Part shown: one piece after another, positions 938 to 18,512 of the stretch
Position numbering within the stretch: the stretch's first letter is position 1
Layout: each line of letters begins with the position of its first letter
IMG/VR virus record: IMGVR_UViG_3300031658_000189
Span: 1-20,564 of that record
Length of the DNA stretch: 20,564 nt
Reading direction: 5' to 3' (one strand)
Source of the DNA: a virus
Notes under the pieces: model-generated
Database searches by the model: none
Told to the model about the DNA's origin: nothing
Seen by the model: the letters and a program-made list of their open reading frames with translations, nothing else
Program-made: the position numbers and the translations under genes

Positions 938-2551
938 ATGGAACAAGGAGGATATTCACCCAAGGAATTACACTTCGGACAGGAAGGTCAAAAGAAGCTT
1001 ATTAATGGTATTACTAAGATGGCTAATGCGGTAAAGAGCACATTAGGTCCGATGGGTAATACGGTACTTATAGAATCTCCAGACCAACTAGGAGGACTAA
1101 CTGTAACGAAAGACGGTGTAACCGTTGCAAAATCCATAGCTTTATTAGACCCGGTAGAGAACCTTGCGGTAAAGATGATGCGCGAGGCGGCTGACCGCAC
1201 GGCTACGATTGCTGGAGACGGCACAACTACGGCGATAGTATTAACGGAGGCGTTAGTAAAGTCGGGTATGAGTAGGATTTCATCAAAAGACAACAAGACT
1301 GAGGTACTTCGTGAATTGTTGGCGGAGACCAATTCAGTATTGAAGCTATTAAAAAAAACAAGTAAGCCGGTAAACAAACGTATGTTAAAAGATGTGGCTA
1401 CCATATCTGCTAACAACGACAATACAATCGGTTCAATAATCGCAAATACTTATAATGCGGTTGGTGAGAATGGTATAGTTACGGTAGAGCGTTCTCAAAC
1501 TTCAGAGACGTATAACGAGACGACAGATGGTTTAAAGATAGACCGTGGGTATTCATCCAATCTATTTATTAATAACCATAAAAAAGATGAGTGTGTTTTA
1601 GAGGATGTGCATATTCTGGTGTCTGATGCAGAGATTGGGAATTTATTAACGATAGAGAACATACTAAAGCCGATTATATCGGACAATAAGAAATTACTAA
1701 TAGTAGCACCTTGTTCTACTAATGTCATAAACACCCTTGCGGCGAATGTGATGAAGAACAACTTGAAAATTTGTAACATCACTCCTCCAAATTTCGGTTA
1801 CAAACAACATGAACTAATGCAGGATATAGCTCTTGCTGTTGGTGCTACTTATTTTTCAGAAAAGACAGGAGATGATTTAAGTATAATTGATTTTAAAGAC
1901 CTTGGACACGCCAATAAAGTAATTGTTGGGTCGGATACGACCATCGTTCTTAAAAACAACAAAGATAATACCACGGAGGTAAAGGATAGAGTGGAGCAGC
2001 TATGGGATGCCCATAAGATGGCACACAAAAAAACAGACAAAGATTTTATATTGTCGAGAATCGCATCGCTTACAGGCGGGATTGGTGTTATATATGTTGG
2101 CGGTAACACCGACCTCGAGCAGAAGGAGCTCTATGACAGAGTTGATGATGCAGTGTGCGCGGTGCGCTCGGCTTTATTAGAAGGTATTCTCCCAGGTGGG
2201 GGCGTAGCACTATATGAATTTCATAATTCACAGTTAGCGAAATCTAAGTATGGTAAAAATGAGTCGAAAAAAATAGCTAGCGCTATTTTAGCGGACGCAC
2301 TTCGTGCGCCGCTTGCACAAATCCTTGAGAACGCAGGGTTGACAGAGAAGGATATTTATCCTCCAGATGATTTCCTGCCAGGAAGAGGGTATGATGTAAA
2401 GGCGGGTGTTTATGGAGACATGTTTAAACTAGGAATTATAGACCCTATGAAAGTTACAAAGATTGCACTTCAAAATGCAGTGTCTGTAGCGATAACTATT
2501 TTATCTACTAACGCTATTATTACTATGGCACGAAGTTATGATGCAGAATGA
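938..2551 (+). CDS. groEL: Phage GroEL-like chaperonin (group I Cpn60)
   Basis: A 537-residue group I chaperonin, which would form a ring that encloses a polypeptide and folds it using ATP in the cytoplasm. Equivalents of the key E. coli ATP-site residues are present: KDG at 58-60 (Asp52 equivalent D59), GDGTTTA at 93-99 (Asp87 equivalent D94), RVDDA at 401-405 (Asp398 equivalent D404) and GGG at 420-422 in the nucleotide pocket. The apical domain retains DRGYxSxxFIN and LMQDIA. The C-terminal GGM repeat tail of bacterial GroEL is absent; the protein ends ITMARSYDAE. Several hydrophobic substrate/GroES-binding positions seem changed. Parts of the gene use more GCG, ACG and CGN codons than its neighbours. 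It heads an operon with groES three genes on, from the promoter at 888-917. Confidence 0.96.
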   Translation: MEQGGYSPKELHFGQEGQKKLINGITKMANAVKSTLGPMGNTVLIESPDQLGGLTVTKDGVTVAKSIALLDPVENLAVKMMREAADRTATIAGDGTTTAIVLTEALVKSGMSRISSKDNKTEVLRELLAETNSVLKLLKKTSKPVNKRMLKDVATISANNDNTIGSIIANTYNAVGENGIVTVERSQTSETYNETTDGLKIDRGYSSNLFINNHKKDECVLEDVHILVSDAEIGNLLTIENILKPIISDNKKLLIVAPCSTNVINTLAANVMKNNLKICNITPPNFGYKQHELMQDIALAVGATYFSEKTGDDLSIIDFKDLGHANKVIVGSDTTIVLKNNKDNTTEVKDRVEQLWDAHKMAHKKTDKDFILSRIASLTGGIGVIYVGGNTDLEQKELYDRVDDAVCAVRSALLEGILPGGGVALYEFHNSQLAKSKYGKNESKKIASAILADALRAPLAQILENAGLTEKDIYPPDDFLPGRGYDVKAGVYGDMFKLGIIDPMKVTKIALQNAVSVAITILSTNAIITMARSYDAE

Positions 2552-2914: not shown

Positions 2915-3172
2915 ATGAAACCAATAGGAACAAATATTGTTATAAAAACAATTGAAGAAGAAATCAAAACCTCATCAGGATTATTATTGTCTTCAGACGA
3001 TGCTAACCAACTAAGATACAAAAAAGGATTGATAGTAAAACCGGGTACAGATGTGACGGTTATAAAAGAAGGTGATAAAATATATTACGACAAGAGAGCG
3101 GGATATACAATGCTTATAAATAATGAACCCTATACAATCATTTCTCAGAATGATGTCGTTGTTGTTTTATAA
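2915..3172 (+). CDS. groES: GroES-like co-chaperonin (Cpn10), 85 aa
   Basis: An 85-residue Cpn10 that would cap the GroEL ring. The strand GTNIVIKTIEEE (5-16) is followed by a mobile loop at about 17-37 whose GLLL (22-25) matches the GroES GIVL tripeptide region that docks to GroEL, and by KEGDKIYY (51-58), matching KVGDIVIF of GroES. The C-terminus (YTIISQNDVVVVL) matches the final strand. The protein is 12 residues shorter than E. coli GroES, and most of the loss is between residues 41 and 51, where the dome-forming hairpin should be. T4 Gp31 also lacks this hairpin. It starts 2 bases after the previous gene, and its last 35 bases overlap the oppositely oriented regulator gene. Confidence 0.88.
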   Translation: MKPIGTNIVIKTIEEEIKTSSGLLLSSDDANQLRYKKGLIVKPGTDVTVIKEGDKIYYDKRAGYTMLINNEPYTIISQNDVVVVL

Positions 3173-5267: not shown

Positions 5268-7520
5268 ATGGCAATAAAATTTTCCCAATTCGCAGTAGGA
5301 GCAACAACAGCTGATGTAGACTTTATAGTAGGATACAAGGCAACTGAAAATGTTCAAATTCCAATTGGCTTAGTTACTGCCAATACAACCTATAGTGTAT
5401 CCACAGCTCAGGCTGGGCTCAACGAAACACTAACTTTAACAGGAGCAGGCCCGGCAAGCACGGATGATATTACTTTTACAGCAGGAGCAGATATTGTTTT
5501 AACTGATGACGGAGCAGGAAATGGATTTACTATAGCTTCTAACGGCCCTCAAGGGACTGTTACTTCTGTAGGCTCTACCTCTGGAGTAACGGCTTTAACG
5601 CTTGTTACGAGTGCAGCCTCTCCAACCCCTGTATTAACATTAGGAGTTACTGGAGGTACACCAGGGCAATATTTACAACAAGACGGAAATTGGGAAACAT
5701 TACCTCCTGCCGATACATATACATTGCCAATAACTGGGAGTGCAGCAGCTGTTACCGCTACTCTTACTGGAAACGCAGGAGATACTGACCCTGTTCTTAT
5801 TACCGGAGGAACAAACGTTGCTTTCTCAAGTATTACAGCAGCAGGCTTTACTGTTGACGCTACAGACACAAATACTACATACGACCTAACAACTACTACT
5901 ACAGCAGATGGGCAAACTAATGTTCCTCTAAATTTAGTTCCTTCAACAGGAGCAACAGATGTTCTAAACTTAAAAGGAGCAGGAACAGTTACCATTGAAA
6001 GTGATTCCGGAACAGGAGTTGTTACAATTACAGGAGGTAGTCTTGGAGATGTTACTTCATTTAATCAGGTTTCAGGAGCTGCATCAACAGGAGCAGCACT
6101 AACTGCAGCCGGTACAGGAGCAGGGCCATACACTGGAACTGTAACTGTTGCATCAAATTCTTATGCTGGGGGAGCAAATGTGGGGCACGTCCCATCTGGA
6201 GGAGCAGCAGGACAATATTTAGACGGAGCCGCTGGAGCTTGGACAACAGTAACAACCGGCTCAGTAACAGAAGTAACTTCAGCAGATGTAAACTTAATTA
6301 GCGTAGCAACCGGAACAACTACACCTGTTCTTACCGCTGTAACAGGAGCTGTAACTGGAGCTTCTACTAATTTAGCTACAGGAACTCAAATACAAACAGC
6401 AATTGATACCGCATTAAGCTCCGCTTTAATTTTTAAAGGGGGATATGATGCCTCTACAAATGCGCCGGTATTAGATAGTAGAGGAACTCCAATAGCAATT
6501 TCAGTTGGAGACACTTATATAGTAAGTGTAGCAGGAACTTTTTATGGTGATGCTGTAACTACTGGTGAAACAATGATAGTAAAAGTGGACAGAGCCGCTG
6601 GAGCTTCAACTGCTGCCGATTGGACAGTAATACAAGAAAATATTGGATTAGCAACTACTACTACAGCAGGAATTTCTAGCTACTCAACAGCTGGAGGACT
6701 GGCTGTAGACGGAAATGGTGTTGCTTCAATAGCAAATTCAGGAGTAACCGCACTACGATTAGATACTGATTCTGTAATCACGACCAAGATATTAGATGCA
6801 AACGTTACAACTGCTAAAATAGCTGATAGTAATATCACAATTGCTAAAATGGCTGACGATTCTGTCGGAGCTGCCGAGTATGTTGATAATTCAGTGGGAG
6901 CTATTGCCTTAAATGTGGCAGGAGATGGAACTGTTGGACAAGCTCTTTTATCAGACGGGGATGGAACTATGTCATGGGGGGCTGCTGGAAGCAGTTATAC
7001 TGCCGGGGACGGAATAACATTAAACGCTTTAGAGTTTGATTTAGATGCAGACCTTACAACAGTAACATCTGTTTATAACGCAGGATTAAAAGTAGGTCGA
7101 GCTGTTAATGATGACTATATTAGTTTTGCAACCGATAACCAAATTAGCACTTTCATAGGAAACGCTGAAAAAATGAGGTTAGACTCTTCATTTGATTTAC
7201 AAGTTGCTGGAGACGTTGTCGCAGCCTCTACAGCATTTTCTGATGAGAGACTAAAGGAGAACATTAAAAAAATAGAAAGTCCATTAGAAGCCGTTAAAAA
7301 GCTTAATGGAGTTACATACAACTGGAAAGAAACAGGAAAAGCTAGTGTAGGAGTTATTGCTCAAAATATTCAAGAAGTTTATCCTGAGTTAGTAAAAGAA
7401 ATTTTACCAATCGGAAGTGACGAGAAAAGACTTACCGTAAACTACGATGGGCTTATTGGACTACTAATCGAAACAGTAAAAGAGTTAACTGAAAAGGTTG
7501 AAAAATTAGAAAATAAATAA
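5268..7520 (+). CDS. Tail fibre/spike with C-terminal S74 self-cleaving chaperone domain
   Basis: A 750-residue Gly/Thr/Ala-rich beta-structured protein, the composition of trimeric phage fibres. Residues about 1-40 (MAIKFSQFAVGATTADVDFI) likely anchor to the tail. The middle is a long run of short beta turns (VTSVG, TLTGNAGDTDPV, TVTIESDSGTGV). About 500-560 contains repeated TAKIADSNITIAKMADDSVG-type segments. The C-terminus from about 654 is an intramolecular chaperone of the endosialidase (peptidase S74) type: SDERLKENIKKIESPLEAVK, GVIAQNIQEVYPELV, then a terminal coiled coil. Ser658 and Lys663 occupy the positions of the known Ser/Lys cleavage pair, with cleavage expected just before Ser658 after trimer assembly. 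It probably binds the host surface. Confidence 0.92.
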   Translation: MAIKFSQFAVGATTADVDFIVGYKATENVQIPIGLVTANTTYSVSTAQAGLNETLTLTGAGPASTDDITFTAGADIVLTDDGAGNGFTIASNGPQGTVTSVGSTSGVTALTLVTSAASPTPVLTLGVTGGTPGQYLQQDGNWETLPPADTYTLPITGSAAAVTATLTGNAGDTDPVLITGGTNVAFSSITAAGFTVDATDTNTTYDLTTTTTADGQTNVPLNLVPSTGATDVLNLKGAGTVTIESDSGTGVVTITGGSLGDVTSFNQVSGAASTGAALTAAGTGAGPYTGTVTVASNSYAGGANVGHVPSGGAAGQYLDGAAGAWTTVTTGSVTEVTSADVNLISVATGTTTPVLTAVTGAVTGASTNLATGTQIQTAIDTALSSALIFKGGYDASTNAPVLDSRGTPIAISVGDTYIVSVAGTFYGDAVTTGETMIVKVDRAAGASTAADWTVIQENIGLATTTTAGISSYSTAGGLAVDGNGVASIANSGVTALRLDTDSVITTKILDANVTTAKIADSNITIAKMADDSVGAAEYVDNSVGAIALNVAGDGTVGQALLSDGDGTMSWGAAGSSYTAGDGITLNALEFDLDADLTTVTSVYNAGLKVGRAVNDDYISFATDNQISTFIGNAEKMRLDSSFDLQVAGDVVAASTAFSDERLKENIKKIESPLEAVKKLNGVTYNWKETGKASVGVIAQNIQEVYPELVKEILPIGSDEKRLTVNYDGLIGLLIETVKELTEKVEKLENK

Positions 7521-9839: not shown

Positions 9840-10064
9840 ATGGATATTAGAAAAATCTCTGTAGGACCTGACTACAAGTCAGGAGCAATGCATTATTTAG
9901 TAGGACAAGAAGTTTTAGGAGGAACACATCAAATTCATTTAATAAAACAAAACACGGATAATGGGTCTATTTGTATATGGATTCAAAAGAAAGAAGAAAT
10001 CTTTTTATGGAAAGAGTTCAATTCTACCATACCAGTATCACTAGAGTATAACATAAATTTTTAA
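9840..10064 (+). CDS. Conserved-type hypothetical phage protein, 74 aa
   Basis: A 74-residue protein opening MDIRKISVGPDYKSGAMHYL and ending LWKEFNSTIPVSLEYNINF. It is a compact beta-rich sequence with short strands (GGTHQIHLIKQ, SICIWIQKK, IFLWKEF). I recognise this as a type found repeatedly in Bacteroidota phages near the packaging genes, without a known function. It sits alone behind the promoter at 9816-9823 and starts a chain of genes reaching the terminase. Confidence 0.75.
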   Translation: MDIRKISVGPDYKSGAMHYLVGQEVLGGTHQIHLIKQNTDNGSICIWIQKKEEIFLWKEFNSTIPVSLEYNINF

Positions 10065-10070
10065 AACCAC

Positions 10071-10244
10071 ATGAGCACAACCGAGTTATTAAATGAATTT
10101 AATGTATTGCAAGATAAAAAGAAAAATACCAGTGACTGGATGGAACAATTAGAAATACAAGACCAAATACATGGCATTGAAATGAAGCTGAACGGAGTAA
10201 AACCTACCGATTCTAGTATAGACTGTGAGGGCTGTGGCTCATGA
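10071..10244 (+). CDS. Helical microprotein with C-terminal CxxC, 57 aa
   Basis: ATG 10071 lies 6 bases after the previous stop; the frame ends at TGA 10242-10244, overlapping the next ATG (ATGA). Residues 1-45 are a likely helical pair (ELLNEFNVLQDKKKN, DWMEQLEIQDQIHGIEMKL), and the tail ends DCEGCGS, a possible metal or disulphide site. Similar short CEGCGS-ending proteins are found in related phages, to my recollection. Its coupling to the GroES-fold gene suggests a shared role or shared timing. Confidence 0.72.
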   Translation: MSTTELLNEFNVLQDKKKNTSDWMEQLEIQDQIHGIEMKLNGVKPTDSSIDCEGCGS

Positions 10245-10804
10245 GGTCTCCATTTTATTTCATAGTACAGCCTGTAAAAGGCAAAAGGTATAACAACTCA
10301 AAAGAAGTTGGAGGTATAAACCTTATAACAAGCACTTCTGAGGAAAACCACATGGCCTCTAACAGAGAAGCTATAGTAATTTCTACACCATTGGGCTATG
10401 AAGGAGATATAAGTCCAGGAGACGCGCTCCTAGTACACCACAATGTCTTTAAATTTTATAACGACATGAAGGGTCGTCAGCAAAGCGGTAAGAGCTTCTT
10501 TATGGATGACTTATTTTTTGTAGACAACGAACAATTTTTTATGTATAAAAAAGATAAGGAGTGGCACTGCCATGACCGGTATTGTTTTGTAGAGCCTGTT
10601 CCTGTTACTGAATCTTTTATAGACAAACCTTTTAAAGAAGAACCTTTAATGGGAAAAATGAAATATTTGAATAAAAAACTTATAGACGCTGGATTAAAAC
10701 AAGGAGATTTGATTAGCTTTAAGCCTGAGAGTGAATATGAGTTTACGGTAGACGATAAAAAACTTTATAGAATGTATGACCATCAGATAACGATGTCACT
10801 ATAA
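10241..10804 (+). CDS. Probable tandem GroES-fold (Cpn10-like) protein, 187 aa
   Basis: The first half follows the GroES plan: strand FYFIVQPVKG (5-14); a polar loop at 15-42 with GGINL at 24-28, matching GGIVL in the GroES mobile loop; strand REAIVISTPLGYEG (42-55); and PGDALLVHH (59-67), matching VGDIVIF. A strand at 92-103 and DRYCFVEPV (112-120) close the barrel. The second half seems to repeat it: EPLMGKMKYLN (134-144), KQGDLISF (153-160), a charged turn, then KKLYRMYDHQITMSL (173-187), like the closing strand of GroES. Two fused Cpn10 folds are known in plastid Cpn20. No roof hairpin is evident in either half. It could be a second co-chaperonin working with the phage GroEL or a virion protein reusing the fold. 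The assignment is by pattern only. Confidence 0.5.
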   Translation: MRSPFYFIVQPVKGKRYNNSKEVGGINLITSTSEENHMASNREAIVISTPLGYEGDISPGDALLVHHNVFKFYNDMKGRQQSGKSFFMDDLFFVDNEQFFMYKKDKEWHCHDRYCFVEPVPVTESFIDKPFKEEPLMGKMKYLNKKLIDAGLKQGDLISFKPESEYEFTVDDKKLYRMYDHQITMSL

Positions 10805-10807
10805 AAA

Positions 10808-10963
10808 ATGAGACATTCAATTAAATGTAGTCAATGTGATGAAACTTTTCCTGCGGGATTTGAATATAGAATGCATTGGGAAGATGCTCATTTAGACGGA
10901 GCTATAATATATGCAGAAAATAAATTAAATGAACTCAGAAGAATTAAAGATACAGATAATTAG
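10808..10963 (+). CDS. C2H2-like zinc-finger microprotein, 51 aa
   Basis: ATG 10808 follows an A-rich leader (ATAAAAA). The 51 residues contain C7-x2-C10 and H23-x4-H28, with spacing C-x2-C-x12-H-x4-H and aromatic/hydrophobic residues between (TFPAGFEYRMHW). This is a C2H2 zinc-finger layout, followed by a charged helix. A DNA-binding role is plausible. Its last 35 bases overlap the next gene in another frame, and its product ends RRIKDTDN. Its position directly before the terminase genes suggests involvement in packaging or its regulation. Confidence 0.7.
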   Translation: MRHSIKCSQCDETFPAGFEYRMHWEDAHLDGAIIYAENKLNELRRIKDTDN

Positions 10964-11210
10964 TGCAGGCAGAAAAGCTGTTGAGCAACTAATTAAAGTA
11001 GCTAAAGAAGATATTATTAAACACAATCCAGAAGATGATTTAGCTGCTGATAGATTAAAGAATGCGGCAGCTACAAAGAAGCTTGCTATTTTTGATGCTT
11101 TTGATATTCTCAATAAGATTGATGCAGAGCAAGAAAATATTAATTTATCAAATAACCCTGAAACTAAAGTAGAAACAAAACAAGGATTTGCAGAAAGACG
11201 CTCCAGATAG
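10929..11210 (+). CDS. Probable small terminase subunit, 93 aa
   Basis: A 93-residue, mostly helical, charged protein (MNSEELKIQIISAGRKAVEQ, then a linker DDLAADRLKNAAATKKLAIF and an acidic-basic tail ending QGFAERRSR). It has no enzymatic motif. It overlaps the TerL start by 23 bases, and small terminases are usually encoded immediately upstream of TerL. They form rings that recognise phage DNA and start packaging. The size is small for the family, and no clear helix-turn-helix is visible, so the call leans on gene order and overall character. Confidence 0.6.
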   Translation: MNSEELKIQIISAGRKAVEQLIKVAKEDIIKHNPEDDLAADRLKNAAATKKLAIFDAFDILNKIDAEQENINLSNNPETKVETKQGFAERRSR

Positions 11211-13434
11211 ATTATATACGGTAATTAAAAATTATATACCTAAGGGAGTTCTATCTAATAAGAATAGAGCTAAAACTTGGGCGTATGGTTATAACGAAAA
11301 GTATGAGCTTATTGTTATTTCTAAAAGCGGACAGGTCGGAGATGTTATTAAAATATCAAATTTAATTATTGGCCTTCCTCCTGTTTCTAAAGAAATTACA
11401 AATAGTCATAAAAAATCTAAGGAACAATATTGGGAGCGTAAAGAATTGCCAAAAGCTCTTTCTAGAATATTCTCTATTTTCCAATGGAATGAGATGCCTT
11501 CTAAGTTTAAAACACAGTGGGTTGATTATATTGAGCAGGAATTTGACCGTAGAGATTACGGTTATTGGTTTAATAACAATGGCGAATCAACTTATATTAC
11601 AGGCTCTCACTATATGTATCTTCAGTGGACTAGTATCGATATAGGATACCCTGATTTTAGAGAAGCAAATAGAATATTTTTTATGTTTTGGGAAGCTTGT
11701 AAGGCTGACAAAAGGAGCTTTGGAATGGTTTACTTAAAAATAAGACGTTCAGGATTTTCTTTTATGGGCTCTTCAGAGTCTGTAAACACAGGAACTTTAG
11801 TAAAAGATTCAAGGGTTGGTATATTATCTAAGACGGGGTCTGATGCTAAAAAGATGTTTACGGATAAGGTTGTTCCTATAGCGAACAGACTTCCTTTTTT
11901 CTTTAAACCTATTCAGGATGGTATGGATAAACCAAAGTCTGAGTTAGCTTTTCGTATACCAGCCTCAAAGATTACCAAAAAGAATATGTATGATTCTATT
12001 GACAATGAGTTGTATGGGTTAGATACTACTATTGACTGGAAGAATACAGATGACAACTCTTATGATGGGGAAAAATTACTTTTATTAGTTCATGATGAAT
12101 CTGGTAAATGGATTAAACCTAATAATATTCTCAATAACTGGCGCGTAACTAAAACATGTTTAAGACTGGGAAGTAAAATTATAGGAAAGTGTATGATGGG
12201 CTCAACCTCTAACGCACTAGACAAAGGAGGAGCTAACTTTAAAAAACTTTATGAAGACTCTGATGTAAAGACTAGAAATGCAAATGGTCAAACAAAAAGT
12301 GGGATGTATTCTTTATTTATACCTATGGAATTAAATATGGAAGGTTTTATAGACAGACATGGAATGCCGGTTTTGCGAGCTCCGACTGAAAAGATAAAAG
12401 GAGTAGATGGAGAATGGATAACTAACGGAGCTATAGACTATTGGGAGGCTGAAGTCGATTCTTTAAAGTCTGATGCAGACGCACTTAATGAATTTTATAG
12501 ACAGTTTCCAAGAACGGAATCGCATGCTTTTAGAGATGAAAGCAAATCATCATTATTTAATTTAACTAAAATATACCAGCAGATAGACTATAATGATTCT
12601 CTTATGATAGACCAACATGTTACTAGAGGTAATTTTTATTGGGAGAATGGAATAAAAGATGGTAAGGTTGCTTTTAGCCCTGACAGTAGAGGTCGATTCT
12701 TAATAAGTTGGGTTCCTTCTAAAGCATTACAGAATAGATTTACAGAACGAAAAGGTCTTAAGTATCCTGGGAATGAACACATTGGAGCTTTTGGTTGTGA
12801 CTCTTATGATATTTCAGGAACAGTTGGGGGTAGGGGCTCAAACGGAGCGCTGCATGGAATAACAAAATTCAGTATGGAAGAAGCTCCGTCTAATGAGTTT
12901 TTCTTACAGTATGTGGCTAGGCCTCAGACGGCGGAGATATTTTTTGAAGAGGTTCTTATGGCGTGTGCATTTTATGGGATGCCTATATTGGTAGAGAATA
13001 ATAAACCCAGACTATTATATCATTTTAAAAACAGAGGGTATAGACCTTTTTCTATAAACCGTCCTGATAAACATTCCTCTAAACTATCTAAAACAGAAAA
13101 AGAACTAGGAGGAATTCCTAATAGTTCTGAAGACGTAAAGCAATCTCATGCAGCTGCTATTGAATCTTATATAGAAAAAAATATAGGGTTAGATTTAAAC
13201 GGAACATTTAGAGGTGAAAATGAAATGGGTAATATGTTGTTTATTAGAACCTTAGAAGATTGGGCTAGATTTGATATAAACAATAGAACCAAATTTGATG
13301 CGAGTATAAGTTCCGGCTTAGCCATCATGGCAACACAAAAACATATGTATTTACCCGAGAAAAAACAATCAAAAATAAACCTTAACTTTGCAAGGTATAC
13401 GAATAAAGGAACTTTAAGTGAATTAATTAGATAG
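11188..13434 (+). CDS. terL: Terminase large subunit (packaging ATPase and nuclease)
   Basis: A 748-residue motor protein that cuts phage DNA and pumps it into the prohead through the portal. The ATPase half shows a Walker A-like KIRRSGFS (184-191), a Walker B LLLLVHDE (297-304) with catalytic Glu304, and a coupling segment KCMMGSTSN further on. The nuclease half has GCDSYDISG (536-544), where Asp538 and Asp541 are candidate metal ligands of the RNase H-like fold. The protein is longer than the usual 450-600 residues, with about 180 residues ahead of Walker A including an aromatic-rich part (WFNNNGESTYITGSHYMYLQ). The start lies within the small-terminase gene, and the portal starts directly after its stop. 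The start at 11188 is the first ATG, but a later start cannot be excluded. Confidence 0.93.
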   Translation: MQKDAPDRLYTVIKNYIPKGVLSNKNRAKTWAYGYNEKYELIVISKSGQVGDVIKISNLIIGLPPVSKEITNSHKKSKEQYWERKELPKALSRIFSIFQWNEMPSKFKTQWVDYIEQEFDRRDYGYWFNNNGESTYITGSHYMYLQWTSIDIGYPDFREANRIFFMFWEACKADKRSFGMVYLKIRRSGFSFMGSSESVNTGTLVKDSRVGILSKTGSDAKKMFTDKVVPIANRLPFFFKPIQDGMDKPKSELAFRIPASKITKKNMYDSIDNELYGLDTTIDWKNTDDNSYDGEKLLLLVHDESGKWIKPNNILNNWRVTKTCLRLGSKIIGKCMMGSTSNALDKGGANFKKLYEDSDVKTRNANGQTKSGMYSLFIPMELNMEGFIDRHGMPVLRAPTEKIKGVDGEWITNGAIDYWEAEVDSLKSDADALNEFYRQFPRTESHAFRDESKSSLFNLTKIYQQIDYNDSLMIDQHVTRGNFYWENGIKDGKVAFSPDSRGRFLISWVPSKALQNRFTERKGLKYPGNEHIGAFGCDSYDISGTVGGRGSNGALHGITKFSMEEAPSNEFFLQYVARPQTAEIFFEEVLMACAFYGMPILVENNKPRLLYHFKNRGYRPFSINRPDKHSSKLSKTEKELGGIPNSSEDVKQSHAAAIESYIEKNIGLDLNGTFRGENEMGNMLFIRTLEDWARFDINNRTKFDASISSGLAIMATQKHMYLPEKKQSKINLNFARYTNKGTLSELIR

Positions 13435-17078: not shown

Positions 17079-18512
17079 ATGGCAGGAGCAGTTCAAGCAG
17101 CCCCAGGGTTCGCTTTACAACCAAGTGCGGAACAAGTACCTTTGATTTCGAACTATATTACAGACTTCAATTTCTTAGACCAGTATCTTCCGGATACTTA
17201 CGAAAAGGAATTTGAAAGATACGGTAATCGTACCGTTGCATCATTTCTTCGTTTAGTAGGCGCTGAAATGCCTTCTAACTCTGACCTTATCAAATGGGCA
17301 GAACAAGGAAGATTACATACTAAATACACAGATTGTACTACAGCACAGGCTTTAGCGCCAGGAGTTACAACTGCAACTTTTACTATCAATGACACTTTAA
17401 TTCCTAATACAGGAAGTATCGCTGTTAGAGTTGGTCAAACTGTAGTTATCTCAGGAAATGCAGGAGAAGGTCTTCATAAAGCTGTTGTTATTGCTGTAGC
17501 TACTGGTGCGGGAACAATTGATGTTGCTTTTTACGGAGCTGATTTTGTAAACGCTGCTGCTGTAAATAAATACACAGTGTTTATTTATGGTTCAGAATTT
17601 AGAAAAGGAACAACAGGAATGGATGGCTCTTTAGAGGCAGACGATGTATTCTTTTCAAACTCTCCTATTATCATAAAAGACAAGTACGCTGTTAGCGGGT
17701 CTGATATGGCACAAATTGGATGGGTAGAGGTTCAAACTGAAAACGGAGCTAATGGATACCTATGGTATTTAAAATCTGAGCATGAAACACGTTTGCGTTT
17801 TGATGATTACCTAGAGACTTCAATGATTGAAGCTGTACCAGCGCTTGCTGCGTCTGGAGCTGCAACTCAAGCTGTCAACACAAATGTTGGTAACAAAGGG
17901 TCTGAAGGTATTTTCTATGTAGTAGAAAACCGTGGTAATGTATGGGGTGGAGGAAATCCTGTAGCATTAGCTGATTGGGATGCTATTATATCTCGTTTAG
18001 ATAAGCAAGGTTCTATTGAAGAAAACGTAGTTTTTGTTGATAGAGACTTTGGATTTGACATTGACGATATGTTGGCTGCACAGAACTCTTATGGAGCTGG
18101 TGGTACTTCTTATGGTCTTTTTGACAATGATAAGGAAATGGCCTTAAATTTAGGATTCACAGGTTTCCGTAGAGGTTATGACTTTTACAAGTCTGACTGG
18201 AAATACTTAAATGACCCAACTATGCGAGGTGGTTTACCTACAGGAGCTAATTCAGGACGTGTAAACGGACTATTAGTGCCAGCAGGTTCTACTACTGTAT
18301 ATGACCAGATTTTAGGTAAGAATGCTAAACGACCTTTCTTACATGTTCGTTACCGAGCATCTGAAACTGAAGATAGACGTTACAAAACTTGGATTACAGG
18401 TTCTGCTGGCGGAGCTTCAACTTCAAGCTTAGACGCTATGGAAGTTCATTTCTTGTCTGAGAGAGCTGTATGTACTTTAGGTGCAAACAACTTCTTCTTA
18501 TTCCAGGAGTAA
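17079..18512 (+). CDS. Major capsid protein, 477 aa
   Basis: The 477-residue product begins MAGAVQAAPGFALQPSAEQV and has an N-arm/E-loop-like part with NFLDQYLPDTYEKEFERYGN and FLRLVGAEMPSNSDLIKWAE. A beta-rich insert follows at about 87-171 (VRVGQTVVISGNAG, KYTVFIYGSEF), then the core with YLWYLKSEHETRLRFDDYLE, FVDRDFGFDIDDMLAAQNSY and GFTGFRRGYDFYKSDWKYLN. The position after the scaffold and before neck genes, the length, and the mixed alpha/beta character support an HK97-fold major capsid protein. The insert may be a surface domain. The A/T-rich leader (AAAAATTATAATT) and the strong terminator directly after suggest it is highly expressed. It is a plausible client of the phage chaperonin. 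Confidence 0.85.
   Translation: MAGAVQAAPGFALQPSAEQVPLISNYITDFNFLDQYLPDTYEKEFERYGNRTVASFLRLVGAEMPSNSDLIKWAEQGRLHTKYTDCTTAQALAPGVTTATFTINDTLIPNTGSIAVRVGQTVVISGNAGEGLHKAVVIAVATGAGTIDVAFYGADFVNAAAVNKYTVFIYGSEFRKGTTGMDGSLEADDVFFSNSPIIIKDKYAVSGSDMAQIGWVEVQTENGANGYLWYLKSEHETRLRFDDYLETSMIEAVPALAASGAATQAVNTNVGNKGSEGIFYVVENRGNVWGGGNPVALADWDAIISRLDKQGSIEENVVFVDRDFGFDIDDMLAAQNSYGAGGTSYGLFDNDKEMALNLGFTGFRRGYDFYKSDWKYLNDPTMRGGLPTGANSGRVNGLLVPAGSTTVYDQILGKNAKRPFLHVRYRASETEDRRYKTWITGSAGGASTSSLDAMEVHFLSERAVCTLGANNFFLFQE

Follow-up and report, generated by a model that had tools for sequence, protein, structure and literature searches.

The tandem Cpn10 gene and its recognition

The window, by which we mean the whole stretch of DNA analysed, is an IMG/VR virus record of 20,564 bases (IMGVR_UViG_3300031658_000189). 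It codes for a 187 amino acid (aa) protein (10241..10804, plus strand, as are all features below) that almost certainly contains two Cpn10 (GroES) folds according to structure prediction, the first in residues 1-105 (10241..10555) and the second in residues 106-187 (10556..10801). The genes of the window follow one another as groEL, a single groES, tail-fibre genes, an M15 peptidase endolysin with a holin, the cassette with the tandem gene, the gene of the large terminase subunit (TerL), the portal gene and head genes. In the cassette the tandem open reading frame (ORF) lies between ORFs of 74 and 93 aa, with TerL, the portal and the head genes downstream.

The tandem protein matches PHROG 13932, a profile of 200 positions named 'co-chaperonin GroES', with an E-value of 2.7e-22 (residues 1-179 to profile positions 1-191). 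RefSeq gives the same name to several relatives in Elemovirus, Callevirus and Maribacter phage Panino, so that the original prediction was wrong to regard the family as unannotated. The family name GroES is already in databases; what seems to be new is that these phage proteins are tandem and go together with a single GroES. A search of the full-text literature, with subscription papers outside its scope, found no description of this architecture in phages.

Pfam Cpn10 (PF00166) scores over its cut-off at domain 2 of relatives, with 24 bits in phi38:1, 26 in the Callevirus-like contig L090, and 33-34 in phi18:3 and its kin. Profile-profile comparison relates domain 2 to Cpn10 with a probability of 88-97%. 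With a Cpn10 profile, the first domains of the phi18:3 and elemo proteins reach about 12 bits in register, more than any of 1217 shuffles (maximum 8.7). A sequence bridge is provided by the tandem proteins of phi18:3 (E 1.8e-15) and phi46:3 (E 6.7e-15), which are full-length relatives of the window family.

The GroES-like motifs read earlier from the sequence are found at the places quoted for them: GGINL in residues 24-28 (10310-10324) and PGDALLVHH in residues 59-67 of the first domain, KQGDLISF in residues 153-160 and the closing LYRMYDHQITMSL in residues 175-187 of the second. The accompanying proposal that the GroES plan occurs twice holds at the level of the fold, with two predicted barrels, but not as an obvious sequence repeat: profile comparison of domain 1 with domain 2 gives a probability of 1-3%, which is no detectable resemblance. 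The double plan consequently rests on structure.

Predicted fold

The AlphaFold2 model of the tandem protein, built with 60 relatives in the alignment, shows two Cpn10 barrels (pLDDT 88.7, pTM 0.81) whose relative placement is confident. Foldseek gives as best solved match chain 7ekq_R (E 1e-4). The PDB sequence file lists this chain as a Cpn20 co-chaperonin subunit, the tandem co-chaperonin of Chlamydomonas plastids. The TM-score over the query is 0.56 for this chain against 0.25-0.32 for single-domain GroES chains. VIA-align superposes the model on 7ekq_R with 160 aa aligned over residues 1-187 (Z 9.9, 4.4 Å), suggesting that the two domains are placed roughly like neighbours in the Cpn20 cap. 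A search of phage predicted structures extends the full-length match to the 'Chaperonin cpn10' of phi18:3 (E 6.8e-13).

Taken separately, domain 2 (residues 107-187) has the Cpn10 beta-barrel and aligns with GroES chains at Z 8.3-9.2. Domain 1 folded alone (pLDDT 92.4) also has the Cpn10 barrel, and its top 16 VIA-align rows are all Cpn10, GroES, gp31 or Cpn20 (Z 6.1-7.8), the next best being GroES-like domains of dehydrogenases (Z 5.5). Though moderate in their Z values, these matches form a homogeneous list. The tandem GroES fold proposed from the sequence is therefore supported by the two predicted barrels, by the full-length match to a plastid tandem Cpn10 and by the Cpn10-like first half; no homology to an unrelated virion family appears in the profile matches of the protein.

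Mobile loops and conserved residues

Residues 12-40 (10274..10360) are the mobile-loop candidate of domain 1, drawn by the model as a hairpin that turns at Gly24-Gly25 and has the lowest pLDDT of the full-length protein (blocks 74 and 65). Residue 28 is aliphatic or Phe in 60/60 relatives and residue 26 in 73% of them, and Gly24 and Gly25 are each kept in about 75%. This conservation corresponds to the GGIVL pattern of GroES, the hydrophobic-x-hydrophobic signature after Gly being GGINL in the window. The loop of the second copy (10601..10648) is indeed shorter in the window clade, as first noticed, and lacks the GG-hydrophobic motif. The motif is present in Callevirus and Pachyviridae relatives (GSIIVP in L090, NGLRV in phi38:1, PSLIYIP in phi18:3), suggesting that the ancestral tandem protein probably had two loops and that the one of domain 2 was reduced in the window clade.

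The most conserved block of the family is GDxLLVHHNVF (10421-10450, residues 61-70). Its residues H66, H67 and N68 do not vary among 60 diverse rows, although the motif is absent from GroES and the Pachyviridae read DVN at this place. A 'roofless like gp31' reading of the lid was not used as evidence, since the roof segment is shorter in Bacteroidetes GroES of the host type as well.

Gene order and distribution

Relatives of the tandem protein are encoded in at least 571 viral contig stretches. Their detection needed an alignment of relatives as query, the Panino protein alone finding nothing in the viral-contig search. The order 74-aa ORF, tandem gene, 93-aa ORF, TerL recurs among 162 loci, the 74-aa partner (9840..10064) being found just upstream of the tandem gene in 150 and the 93-aa ORF (10929..11210) in 151 of them. 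The latter could be the small terminase subunit. The tandem gene stands just before TerL in every lineage examined: it abuts or overlaps TerL in phi38:1, elemo and Panino, and a 99-aa ORF lies between the two genes in Pachyviridae.

This invariant place before TerL across lineages, the gene overlaps in phi38:1 and elemo, and the strongly conserved HHN motif without GroES counterpart would suit a protein that has kept the Cpn10 fold but serves in virion structure or DNA packaging, for example as a connector or a terminase partner, and no longer as a chaperonin lid. We find this quite improbable, as the mobile-loop motif is kept and a single Cpn10 always co-occurs with the tandem gene. The product of the tandem gene of phi38:1, gp089, is not listed as structural, and the portal, capsid and tail genes of phi18:3 carry 'experimental MS/MS proteomics' notes but tandem gp096 carries none, the absence of a note being weak evidence. 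The virion proteomes reportedly originate from Holmfeldt et al. in 2013.

Crassvirales were considered on the basis of host and gene order. Database records place the relatives in Pervagoviridae, Pachyviridae and Elemovirus, and neither a Cpn10 nor a match to the tandem-family alignment is found in phi14:2, a phage of the Crassvirales. Listeria, Erwinia and fecal matches were dropped, being weak and partial.

Tandem genes (L170-L192) are also found in contigs of metagenome-assembled genomes labelled Aliivibrio, Aenigmatarchaeota, Woesearchaeota and others; these contigs probably come from phages and were mis-binned.

Co-occurrence with a single Cpn10 and with GroEL

Co-occurrence was assessed in nine tandem-gene records that are isolates or complete. 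All nine encode a separate single Cpn10 that scores over the Pfam cut-off, and so do the six IMG/VR tandem-gene contigs of 50 kb or more (6/6). The single Cpn10 is found in 0/9 other Cellulophaga phages without the tandem gene, which were searched as matched controls because the single GroES diverges too fast for a database-wide background rate. The single Cpn10 of the window (2915..3172) is an 85-aa protein with the mobile loop SSGLLL that matches Pfam Cpn10 with 49.3 bits and has the Cpn20 of 7ekq as its best PDB match.

GroEL is present in 5/9 tandem-gene records. No GroEL is found in four complete circular genomes of Pachyviridae, all with single and tandem Cpn10, and none is detectable in L090 (G006, 72,812 bases; it may be partial), which also has both Cpn10 genes and differs in this from phi38:1. 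The constant pair is thus formed by the single and the tandem Cpn10, GroEL being optional. Such constancy fits the need for a mixed lid but is a correlation across few lineages.

The GroEL of the window (938..2551) belongs to group I (Pfam Cpn60, E 4.4e-56) and residue mapping shows an intact ATP site. The phage GroELs keep the ATP-site residues D52, D87 and D398, with GDGTTT in most, and lack the GGM tail. At position 234 in helix H, 8/9 phage GroELs aligned have Glu, Ala or Gln in place of Leu; a lid-binding site changed in this way would suit a dedicated lid. In the window protein, E. coli positions 234 and 264 are occupied by Glu and Ala respectively, the GGM C-terminal tail is missing and the E. 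coli inter-ring contact residues E461, R452 and A109 are not kept, the other tandem-carrying phages being broadly similar. The GroEL of phi38:1 is made, as methylated GroEL peptides are found in infected cells and virion preparations (PMC13288928).

Since the Pachyviridae carry both lids without GroEL, their partner would be the host GroEL, and the tandem protein could be imagined to modulate that GroEL or a different ring machine, capping ClpP for instance, and so to divert host proteostasis. Cpn11, Cpn20 and Cpn23 cap ClpP in Chlamydomonas, and the best structural match of the tandem protein is the ClpP-bound Cpn20. That match may simply reflect 7ekq being the sole solved structure with a tandem Cpn10. 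Neither the window nor those annotations of relatives that were read show a ClpP gene, and 5/9 carriers bring their own GroEL, leaving this role highly improbable.

A possible mixed lid

Two Cpn10 folds, a loop motif, a conserved gene order and strict co-occurrence with a single Cpn10 are the computed observations to be explained. The tandem protein is likely a phage co-chaperonin with two Cpn10 domains head to tail, in an architecture like that of chloroplast Cpn20. It would probably be made with the late head genes, and its domain-1 mobile loop, joined in some relatives by that of domain 2, would dock on GroEL. A ring of doubles alone cannot match the seven-fold GroEL, hence the proposal of a mixed assembly in which three doubles and one single Cpn10 would form a seven-domain lid. 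We rate the chances of such a mixed ring as about even, the idea, raised earlier from the sequence, being strengthened by the strict co-occurrence with the single Cpn10. The lid would cap the phage GroEL where there is one and otherwise the host GroEL, and the closed cage would fold head proteins such as the capsid protein. The 477-aa virion structural protein (17079..18512; PHROG 13704, E 5.8e-98), which gene order designates as the probable major capsid protein, is a plausible client.

In plastids, Cpn10 and Cpn20 assemble into functional mixed rings with seven GroES domains, and co-chaperonin subunits of Chlamydomonas need mixing (PMC5780408, PMC4242682). Folding of the T4 capsid protein gp23 requires gp31 along with GroEL (PMC3012670, PMC6318259), a precedent for a phage lid that folds a capsid protein.

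The tandem protein might instead form a lid of its own, late and client-specific, apart from the lid of the single Cpn10. This could be a four-chain, eight-domain ring with one domain out, or a three-chain ring. The tandem gene lies among the late head genes and the single gene elsewhere, which agrees with such a division of labour, but every complete carrier keeps the single Cpn10 even without groEL, which favours a joint role. The lost domain-2 motif would moreover leave at most four GroEL-binding loops per four-chain ring in the window clade, and we hold a separate tandem lid to be rather unlikely.

Several points weigh against the late mixed lid. In the window protein Pfam Cpn10 aligns with residues 144-183 only, at 14.8 bits for a cut-off of 21.1, and finds no match on domain 1. 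The Cpn10 profile gives 1.2 bits on the window domain 1, inside the shuffled range. When the halves are submitted separately to profile-profile search, as initially suggested, domain 2 is recognised as Cpn10 but domain 1 is not, its probability of 2-20% comparing with 0.7-4.4% for reversed controls. The short domain-2 loop of the window clade has lost the canonical motif. The nine co-occurrence records amount to about five lineages and are not nine independent cases. The single gene beside groEL and the tandem gene beside TerL are far apart and may be expressed at different times. Late expression, GroEL binding, the mixed ring and the clients are all features that we infer. With these points considered, we still privilege, with moderate confidence, a late tandem co-chaperonin that joins the single Cpn10 in a seven-domain mixed lid and serves the folding of head proteins.

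A broader proposal, which we advance only tentatively, is that a large group of Bacteroidetes phages might have independently reached the chloroplast solution. The obligate mixed lid of doubles and singles would then bear GroEL-binding loops on part of its seven domains, act on the GroEL of the phage or of the host depending on the lineage, and be tuned to the folding of head proteins.

Comparison with known co-chaperonins

The PHROG 13932 and RefSeq proteins of Elemovirus, Callevirus and Panino share with the window protein a full-length family match and the place before TerL, but they are labelled GroES only, their tandem architecture and pairing with a single GroES being undescribed. Gp096 of Cellulophaga phage phi18:3 (Pachyviridae), annotated 'chaperonin cpn10', is likewise tandem, homologous over residues 1-184 and encoded before TerL; it differs in keeping the hydrophobic motif in both loops and in belonging to a phage without GroEL.

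Plastid Cpn20 (Chlamydomonas CPN20, Arabidopsis Cpn20) has the same two head-to-tail Cpn10 domains, is accompanied by a separate Cpn10 and gives the best full-length structural match. Identity is about 11-13%, and the protein of phage origin has an additional insertion in domain 1 and no transit peptide. Cpn20 has a mobile loop in both domains, unlike the window clade with its short domain-2 loop. T4 gp31 and RB49 CocO are also phage-encoded lids of GroES fold, and domain 1 matches gp31 at Z 6.5-7.3. Gp31 has one domain and acts as a homoheptamer on host GroEL, whereas the window protein has two domains and coexists with a separate phage GroES.

Tandem Cpn10, described in a review as chloroplast-specific (PMC5780408), is now found in hundreds of phages, and a single Cpn10 accompanies it in every complete genome checked. 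These tandem/single pairs are small expressible systems in which to study how lids with an even number of domains function on a ring of seven-fold symmetry and what drives the evolution of mixed lids. If it exists, the mixed lid would be asymmetric, some of its domains bearing a loop and others not. Direct tests are possible in phi18:3 and phi38:1, two isolates whose hosts are known.

Other genes of the window

TerL (11188..13434) is assigned by its match to PHROG 6681 (E 2.9e-177), its start codon being uncertain. The end of a large tail-fibre-like ORF (5268-7520) matches the C-termini of numerous PHROG families of tail fibres and is probably an intramolecular chaperone domain.
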